Positions 26,117-28,370 of a stretch of 64,000 nt of DNA are shown here, piece after piece. Location: assembly GCF_020921035.1 (NCBI RefSeq), contig NC_063160.1, positions 22,973,095 to 23,037,094 of the forward strand. The letters run 5' to 3'. The stretch comes from Rhodamnia argentea. Taxonomy: Eukaryota > Streptophyta > Magnoliopsida > Myrtales > Myrtaceae. Positions within the stretch are counted from its first letter, which is position 1. Each line of letters starts with the position of its first letter. Made by a program: the position numbers and the translations under genes. A model generated the notes under the pieces. It saw only the letters and a list, made by a program, of their open reading frames with translations, made no database searches and was not told the DNA's origin.

Positions 26117-26200
26117 TTATAAGCATCGCCATGCAGATGCGGCCACAATGGCTCTGTCTTGCCAACCCAAGAGCAAGCAACCCATGTCCTCCCTCAGACT
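26117..26200 (-). pseudogene. Conserved GRAS C-terminal end lying after the premature stop
   Basis: Directly after the TAG and in the same frame, 27 codons read [20 protein letters not shown] followed by ASAWRCL, then TAA at 26117-26119. This is the SAW end of GRAS proteins ([10 protein letters not shown] ... ASAWR). Both frame and motif are intact, so a single base at 26201 decides whether it is translated (TAG against TAC or TAT). Confidence 0.85.
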
Positions 26201-28370
26201 CTACCCGTGACATGAATACAGGTCCATCAATATCTTCGACTGAGCCACGGCATTCTCACTGAGCGGAACTCTGGTGAACCCTGTCCCTTCCATAACCTTC
26301 CTCCACTTCTCCAGCCTCTCGTGTCTCTCCGTCCTCTCTGGCCCTTCGCATGCCACTATGTTCCTTATCTCCGGCGCGAACATGAACTGCTCCACCTTCG
26401 CCCTGTGCACCGAGTTCGGCGGGAATGTTGCTTCGAGCGAGTCAAAGATCGCGGAGTAATAGTGCAGCGCCTCAAGGAAGCGGCTGAGGAAGTAGGGCCC
26501 GTTGTGGCTTGCTTCTTGCTCTACTAGTGCCACTATGCTCGGTGCTTGGTCCCGTATCATTGTCAGTAAGCTCCCCAGGCAAATACCTGTTTGTGATGAA
26601 TCGGTTTCATATGAAGCGACGAGGATCAAATGTATAAAGTTATGAGAGTTGATTTTATCACATAGTTTACTATGCAAAGAAATACTGATTTTACTCGTAA
26701 ATTTGCAGATATGTTTTCCGCGAATGATCCGATATTGGTTGGAAAGATGGACCAGAGAGTGACCGAAACAAATTAGCAATATTGTACCTGGAACACGGTG
26801 GAGGCAATTCACCGAGTTAACTGCGAGCGCTTCGCCGACCCTTCTATGCAGCAAAGACTGTTCGAGCGCTTCGAGTTGCTCGCCGACCGGATGAAACTCA
26901 AACGGGAGATGTAGGGATTGCGCCAGTTCCACCAAGCACCGGCCCGTTTCGCTCACCATCTCAATGCATGGCCCGACTCCTGTTATCCTCAGAAACGGAG
27001 GGCCACCTGGTCTCGCAGCAAGAGCCTGCATGAAGGACGGCCACTGATATCCTTGTAAGATGTCGAGATCGATCACATGCAGGCGATCCTCATCTGCAAA
27101 GGCCTCGAAGATGGCTTGGTTTGCGGCGAAGTGGGCGAACTTCACGTAGGGGCAGGCTTGGCAGAGGATCTGGTAGATCTTGTGGATCTCCAAGGAGTTT
27201 GGCGGGACAGGAGAGGGAAGTCTTGATGGTTTCGAGGATTTGGTAGCAGTGGCTCCAGAGGCGAGCCTCTCGTTGAGGGCTTCGGTGAAGAAAGATGCGA
27301 CGCGTTGCATGGAGTCGCCGATCGGGGTGACTACGCGGTATAGGTGGTCGAGGTACTTCCTGGCCAGCAAGTAGTCTCCCTTGGAGACGGCTTTGGCGCA
27401 GGTGAGGAGGAGGTGCACTAGTTGGAGGCCACTGTCTTGCTCCTGTTGGGACAAGAACATAAGTTGTAATAGGTGATTCAGATGCATTAAATCATGTCCA
27501 TAGGGTGCGAATCACCTGCTCACAATTTGTAGGAATAGGCACAACGAAGCTGCTTTGCTGTTGCTCTTCCTGGCAATCTTCTCGCCGCAGTTGCTCCGAT
27601 AGAGTTGTCACCAATTTGAGGGGCTTCGCATCGCATAAGTCACCGATCTCCTGGCAAGTCTCGTTTTTGTAGTCCTCTCCGATGACTTCCTTGGCCGGTC
27701 CTGCATGGAACCTCGAAGCATGCGGCATTTCCAACGAAGCCGTGGTAGTTGTCAGGACATCGAAACACTCCTCGGTTCCAAACCCGGACACCGGCCCTGG
27801 CACCGGATACCCTCCGAATTCATCTTTAACACTGTAGTCCTCCAAGAAGTCCAGAGAAATGCAGTCAGACTGCGCGATGACCTGATCCCTGCGGCGTGCA
27901 GAATTGAGGACTCTCTGAAGAGGACTGAGCCCCCTCTCTTTGTGAGCGCCGCTGAAAGAACACCCCAGCTGAGAAGCAAACCGAGGCGGAGAGCAACCCG
28001 AAACCGATTGCCCCTGCATCGCCTGCGCATGGTTGTAATTGTAAGCCGAGGTGCTCTCCGGAGACAGCAGGTTCCCCACTGGCGAGCAGATCATGAAGTC
28101 CGGCCCGTCCATTTGGCCCGAGGAAAGGAGGGACGCCAGCAGCGCCGTTGTGGGCGAGTCGGTCATGGGATTGTCAACCATGTCGAACCTCGGCGATGCG
28201 TACTCTAGGCTGGGCGCGGTCGTGGCGTCCTTGCTCTTGTCCATACTATCAGGACATGGGAGAGTGCCACTTGACTGTGAGGTCGAGTCGTTCGGGAGAC
28301 TCGGCTGAATCTGCGTGCATGAGCTCTGGGCCTTGAGAGATCCCCTGCTGCCACAGAGTGAATTAATCAT
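26201..28370 (-). CDS. RAM1: GRAS transcription factor, RAM1-like, with premature stop near the C-terminus
   Basis: Minus-strand exons 28370-27516, 27442-26788 and 26586-26201 encode 631 residues. Both introns are GT-AG, 73 and 201 bp. The start MINSLCGS and the divergent N-terminal half ([13 protein letters not shown]) look like RAM1. The GRAS domain follows: LHRI with [20 protein letters not shown], the VHIID-like [20 protein letters not shown], then [20 protein letters not shown] and the PFYRE/SAW region [23 protein letters not shown]1 is needed for arbuscular mycorrhiza and acts in the nucleus. The frame ends LYSCHG-stop at 26201-26203, where family members continue with tyrosine into the SAW motif. 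The missing part is still present downstream (26117-26200). The gene may therefore be a functional variant, a recent pseudogene, or carry a sequence error. Confidence 0.8.

Follow-up and report, generated by a model that had tools for sequence, protein, structure and literature searches.

What does an in-frame stop codon mean in a gene whose conserved end is still encoded behind it? The question is raised by a RAM1-like gene of the GRAS family in Rhodamnia argentea (Myrtaceae), situated in a window of 64,000 nucleotides, which is the whole stretch of DNA analysed here (RefSeq assembly GCF_020921035.1, contig NC_063160.1, positions 22,973,095 to 23,037,094 of the forward strand). A preliminary description of the locus had considered a recent loss, an allele present in this individual, an assembly error or stop read-through, and had expected a regulator of arbuscular mycorrhiza to be impaired. 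The explanation that we consider likely is the late nonsense decay of a redundant second RAM1 copy, which probably stems from a Myrtaceae genome duplication, with an intact paralogue on contig C1 carrying the function.

Structure and kinship of the interrupted gene

The window gene is a two-intron GRAS gene on the minus strand, with its ATG at 28370 and a TAG at 26203-26201. Its spliced frame (28370-27516, 27442-26788 and 26586-26117, minus strand) consists of 631 codons, the TAG, 27 further codons and a TAA. Exon 1 (27516..28370; 285 codons) encodes a variable N-terminus of the RAM1 type, which begins with MINSLCG and includes a 14-residue N-terminal motif. It is followed by intron 1 (27443..27515; 73 nt, GT..AG), which has a counterpart of 312 nt at the same place in the C1 copy. 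Exon 2 (26788..27442) carries the first part of the GRAS domain (positions 1-213 of the Pfam profile PF03514) and precedes intron 2 (26587..26787; 201 nt, GT..AG), which is absent from the C1 copy. Exon 3 as far as the stop (26204..26586) covers profile positions 226-345. Behind the TAG (26201..26203) the same frame continues for 27 conserved codons that encode the SAW end (26120..26200), and it closes with the TAA (26117..26119) one codon past the end point of the C1 copy. All these features lie on the minus strand.

With a residue put in place of the stop, exon 3 aligns with positions 226-374 of the 374 in the Pfam GRAS profile at 189.6 bits, and the whole PF03514 domain of the gene is covered far above cut-off, which places it in the GRAS family. 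When exon 3 ends at the TAG, the alignment reaches only position 345 of 374, at 147 bits. The protein given by the standard code lacks the SAW motif, which is encoded 3' of the TAG. The spliced frame and the profile alignment confirm the initial observation of an in-frame TAG after LYSCHG with the SAW end still encoded behind it. The claim that the rest of the gene is intact, both introns included, is also borne out: the start, the two GT..AG introns and the remaining open frame are undamaged, the TAG being the sole lesion in about 1980 coding bases.

The gene had been called RAM1-like, and both its N-terminal motif and its overall similarity to the C1 copy support a place in the RAM1 group. 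RAM1 (Reduced Arbuscular Mycorrhization 1) corresponds to ATA in petunia and to the OG-RAM1 of Cenci and Rouard (PMC5332381), with which the window gene shares the GRAS domain and the N-terminal motif SPLxxVxNS. In a comparison by eye, the published motif is present in the window gene in diverged form, with agreement at 8 of its first 14 positions; in the C1 copy, 13 of these 14 agree. By tblastn, the window gene and the C1 copy are identical at 289 of 385 residues (~75%, where ~11 leading residues of the alignment are translated intron), while their N-terminal parts agree at 113 of 254 aligned residues, both copies opening with the same MINSLCG and having intron 1 in common. None of the other 37 GRAS frames in this genome exceeds ~53% identity to the C1 copy (a value reached by a 139-residue piece), and most have 25-44%, the best other frame among these loci standing at only ~44%. 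Judged by identity in these within-genome GRAS comparisons, the window gene is most probably a member of the RAM1 group, and it differs from OG-RAM1 in its diverged motif, its extra intron and the stop ahead of the SAW end.

The extra intron, intron 2, has a length divisible by three, is free of stops in frame and carries CAGGTA at both ends, and the frame 27511-26201 (minus strand) runs unbroken across its 201 nt. Among dinucleotide shuffles of the intron, 748 of 20000 were likewise stop-free. In the alignment, SCL3-type proteins of the same genome show an exonic insertion about where intron 2 falls. Its absence from the C1 copy and the CAGGTA at each end suggest that intron 2 may have been gained. 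Its retention may be harmless, the stop-free pattern being a weak one that was noticed post hoc. A search of the whole genome, in which very common words are skipped, returned a single match for intron 2, namely itself, and on this ground its membership in a repeat family was rejected.

RAM1 copies of the genome and the origin of the pair

The assembly comprises 346.66 Mb in 74 contigs, of which C1 to C11, of 24-37 Mb each, make up ~99% (summed by hand); according to the accessible text of PMC8110574, Myrtaceae mostly keep eleven chromosomes. A DNA search of this genome with the window gene gave 13 matches. The only full one is the gene itself; others mark two RAM1-like places on C1, and weaker ones fall in other GRAS genes. 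The first place on C1 (33077877-33081971) holds an intact canonical RAM1 of 693 aa, with a start, a single intron at the position of intron 1 of the window gene, a 16-residue N-terminal motif that is near-exact with respect to the published OG-RAM1 motif (PMC5332381), and a complete GRAS C-terminus at its end. RAM1 is one of the genes that the non-host lupin lacks (PMC5316927, in the part accessible), and the stop could accordingly be read as a sign that this plant, too, has lost RAM1 function, and hence arbuscular mycorrhiza, as in non-host lineages. However, this reading is contradicted by the intact canonical gene on C1, and we regard its probability as next to negligible. The loss of a sole RAM1 was rejected for the same reason, and the expected impairment of the plant's mycorrhizal regulator is not supported, the damaged gene being a duplicate.

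The second place on C1 (33898151-33898883) is a third RAM1 copy, decayed and partial, with several stops and a frame shift, and no exon 1 was found in it. It is 87.6% identical to the intact C1 gene over 1808 aligned positions, which include ~1 kb of 3' flank past the stop codon, and by its sequence it is clearly a dead fragment. The region of this copy (C1:33894000-33903500) is ~0.8 Mb from the intact gene. Both the fragment and the window copy are damaged RAM1 duplicates, but the window copy has a single stop and its exon 1 is present.

The window RAM1 and an ACT-domain gene (34331..36165, minus strand) match C1:33.05-33.08 Mb in order and orientation, the ACT-domain gene providing a second anchor for the block of collinearity with C1:33.05 Mb. 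The comparison of the 64 kb window with 120 kb of C1 yielded this one clear further pair and one doubtful anchor at the window edge, which seems to be non-coding (dS 0.50, dN 0.33, no Pfam family). By the Nei-Gojobori method, dS is 1.38 for the RAM1 pair (372 codons) and 1.52 for the ACT-domain pair (428 codons; single exons 0.66 to 3.9). Other between-contig GRAS pairs of the same genome give 0.85, 1.66-1.81, and higher or saturated values, and saturation makes all these dS values rough. The values of 1.38 and 1.52 fit a guava paralogue peak at Ks ~1.3, taken in PMC8051600 as a Myrtaceae-wide genome duplication, whereas a lower eucalypt paralogue peak, given as 0.33-0.45 in PMC8110574, counts against this assignment. 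Because RAM1 is single in other eudicots, the duplication would more likely have occurred inside this lineage than be an older one shared by eudicots; in the survey of eight species presented in the accessible part of PMC5332381, RAM1 is single in seven and absent in one. Taken together, the collinearity and divergence suggest that the pair probably derives from a whole-genome duplication of the Myrtaceae lineage, of uncertain age. A retrocopy origin was rejected, intron 1 being at the same place in both copies.

Upstream of the window gene, a GCCGGC palindrome, the core of the CYCLOPS-binding AMCYC element (PMC12130850), represents a putative element at 29487..29492, 1122 nt 5' of the ATG, and in the C1 RAM1 such a core lies 430 nt before the ATG. 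The 3 kb upstream of each copy contain one core, against the 0.23 that base composition would predict, but neither region is short of the hexamer, and its 7 occurrences in the window make it weak as evidence of an element. MYCS and AW-box patterns have scattered matches upstream of both copies. No similarity was detected by blastn between the upstream 3 kb of the two copies, as is expected at a dS of 1.4. Elsewhere in the window, an OPT oligopeptide transporter is represented on the minus strand by two pieces, 56803-57762 (profile positions 341-622) and 60443-61114 (profile positions 1-92), which are probably exons of one gene. A ubiquitin-like (Rad60-SLD_2) exon on the plus strand (24036-24287) ends ~1.8 kb short of the 3' end of the RAM1 copy, which is encoded on the opposite strand.

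Position, constraint and age of the stop codon

Tyrosine had been expected at the codon taken by the stop, and the intact C1 paralogue, the nearest one, indeed has TAC there. In the disputed column, 16 of the 38 other GRAS rows aligned from this genome (the C1 paralogue and 37 further loci) have Y and 15 have F; C occurs in 3 rows, V in 2 and M in one, and one row has a gap. A single base change suffices to explain the stop, as had been proposed, since TAG differs from the TAC of the paralogue by one base. Solved GRAS structures (SCL3, DELLA and SCARECROW) align across the same stretch to the SAW end; 14 distinct chain sequences were matched, and the alignments of 3 were inspected. The assembly contains 76 GRAS matches, 58 of which span 336 or more of the 374 profile positions (hand count); within these 58, stops are lacking in 56, number nine in one, and number exactly one only in the window gene. 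A tandem GRAS cluster at C6:30989534-31094811 has 12 near-full-length matches in ~105 kb, including one that carries nine stops.

Behind the stop, 26 of the 27 codons align gap-free with the intact paralogue, and the differences amount to 10.5 synonymous and 5.5 non-synonymous ones. This alignment, together with an omega of 0.09, makes the tail more than a product of chance. For the window and C1 copies, omega is 0.105 over the 372 codons of the GRAS domain; it is 0.105 before the stop and 0.09 after it (26 alignable codons). Such equal constraint implies that the tail was under selection most of the time and that the stop is late relative to the duplication. The proposal of a recent loss thus stands in so far as the stop is late in terms of the gene's age, given the omega of the tail and the absence of any other lesion, and it may be a fixed loss or a segregating allele.

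An assembly base error, or an error at one consensus position, would mean that the gene is intact. Both the solitary character of the lesion, with start, introns and frame intact, and the constraint that continues through the tail agree with it. On the other hand, the 56 stop-free matches among the 58 near-full-length ones (counted by hand) indicate that stray stop-making errors are rare here, and nowhere else in the assembly does the locus recur with a different base, an observation that is silent on reads. Overall, we consider such an error unlikely, and the base is presumably real in the plant.

The conserved tail is also what would be seen if read-through of the UAG yielded some full-length protein, and the A directly 3' of the stop agrees with the enrichment described for Arabidopsis, where UGA is the preferred codon and A or U are enriched on either side of the stop (PMC11062462, accessible part). 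However, a late mutation explains the conservation of the tail equally well. In addition, the stop is followed by AGTCTG and not by a CARYYA motif, the base directly 5' of it is a G in place of the enriched A or U, and the RNA 3' of it folds no better than its shuffles, 166 of 200 of which reach at least the same stability (z 0.95). Read-through, one of the options initially listed, therefore finds little support and is extremely unlikely. Splicing around the stop was also considered, a GT overlapping the TAG, and was rejected by eye, the codons behind being conserved as coding.

The proposed late nonsense decay of the window copy can be further placed in time. In relative-rate comparisons with 35 GRAS outgroups, the window copy shows more changes than the C1 copy in 23, fewer in 9 and equal numbers in 3; only 1 of the 35 exceeds a chi-square of 3.84, and the outgroups, all from the same genome, are not independent. 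The GRAS domain of the window copy, as judged from its sequence, shows little sign of relaxed evolution, which may fit usefulness until late, and perhaps still. In the window gene, 3.85% of single changes are computed to create a stop. With no further lesion in the 1977 coding bases, the neutral divergence since the loss is limited to at most ~0.039 when stops only are counted, and to ~0.014 at most under the assumption of 0.10 indels per substitution, two thirds of them frame-shifting. Under these assumptions, the neutral time since the loss would be at most some 2-6% of half the dS, that is, of the time since duplication. In years, the limit is about 1 to 30 million, the published substitution rates differing (1.14e-8 in PMC8051600 and 1.2-1.4e-9 in PMC8110574).

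The truncated product and its meaning

The consequences for the protein can be approached through other plants. Wheat plants whose three copies of RHT1, a DELLA protein of the GRAS family, each carry a stop in the SAW domain have lost its function and are sterile and spindly like DELLA nulls (PMC12867750, in its accessible text). These alleles resemble the window copy in that a GRAS protein is interrupted by a nonsense codon within its C-terminal SAW region; they differ in that they are induced DELLA mutations with a known phenotype, while the stop in the window RAM1 copy is natural or apparent and is known from sequence alone. For RAM1 itself, stepwise removal of GRAS subdomains from either side has been reported to abolish CBX1 binding in yeast, leading the authors to the view that the whole domain is needed (PMC12130850, accessible part). 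By analogy with these GRAS proteins, the product of the window copy is probably inactive. The same two results speak against a stable truncated protein with a new or competing role, for instance one that binds GRAS partners without activating targets: SAW-region stops leave the wheat DELLA proteins non-functional, and RAM1 without GRAS subdomains loses CBX1 binding. The strong past constraint, the near-equal rates of the GRAS domains of both copies and the retention of 345 of 374 profile positions would be compatible with such a role, which we nevertheless hold to be quite unlikely.

In the model of late nonsense decay, the second RAM1 copy would have functioned as a GRAS gene through most of its existence, until a nonsense mutation arose at the conserved aromatic position ahead of the SAW end. 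The mRNA would still be spliced and translation would end after LYSCHG, giving a protein that would be 27-28 residues short at the end of its GRAS fold and would most likely neither fold nor bind its transcription-factor partners. The intact C1 RAM1 would carry the function, so that the damage would be tolerated. Because RAM1 is single in most of the surveyed species (7 of 8; PMC5332381, accessible part), the second copy is likely the dispensable one. A more speculative view is that two RAM1 genes, where other plants have a single one, were kept by strong selection for tens of millions of years and that the SAW-less copy, with an optional 67-residue in-frame intron, modulates or competes with the intact RAM1, in a lineage with arbuscular and other mycorrhizas; this we deem very unlikely. 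In the literature searched, which left most subscription papers out of reach, no report of a RAM1 duplicate or of such a stop in Myrtaceae was found.

If real, the stop would make one of the two RAM1 copies a natural nonsense allele, interrupted at a place where theory and the mutants of other GRAS genes predict a null, and it would offer a test of the redundancy between the copies and of the portion of a GRAS protein that is required. A damaged symbiosis gene in one window does not amount to the loss of the symbiosis when an intact duplicate exists elsewhere, and the retained second RAM1 copy may be of interest to those who study mycorrhiza in this group of plants.
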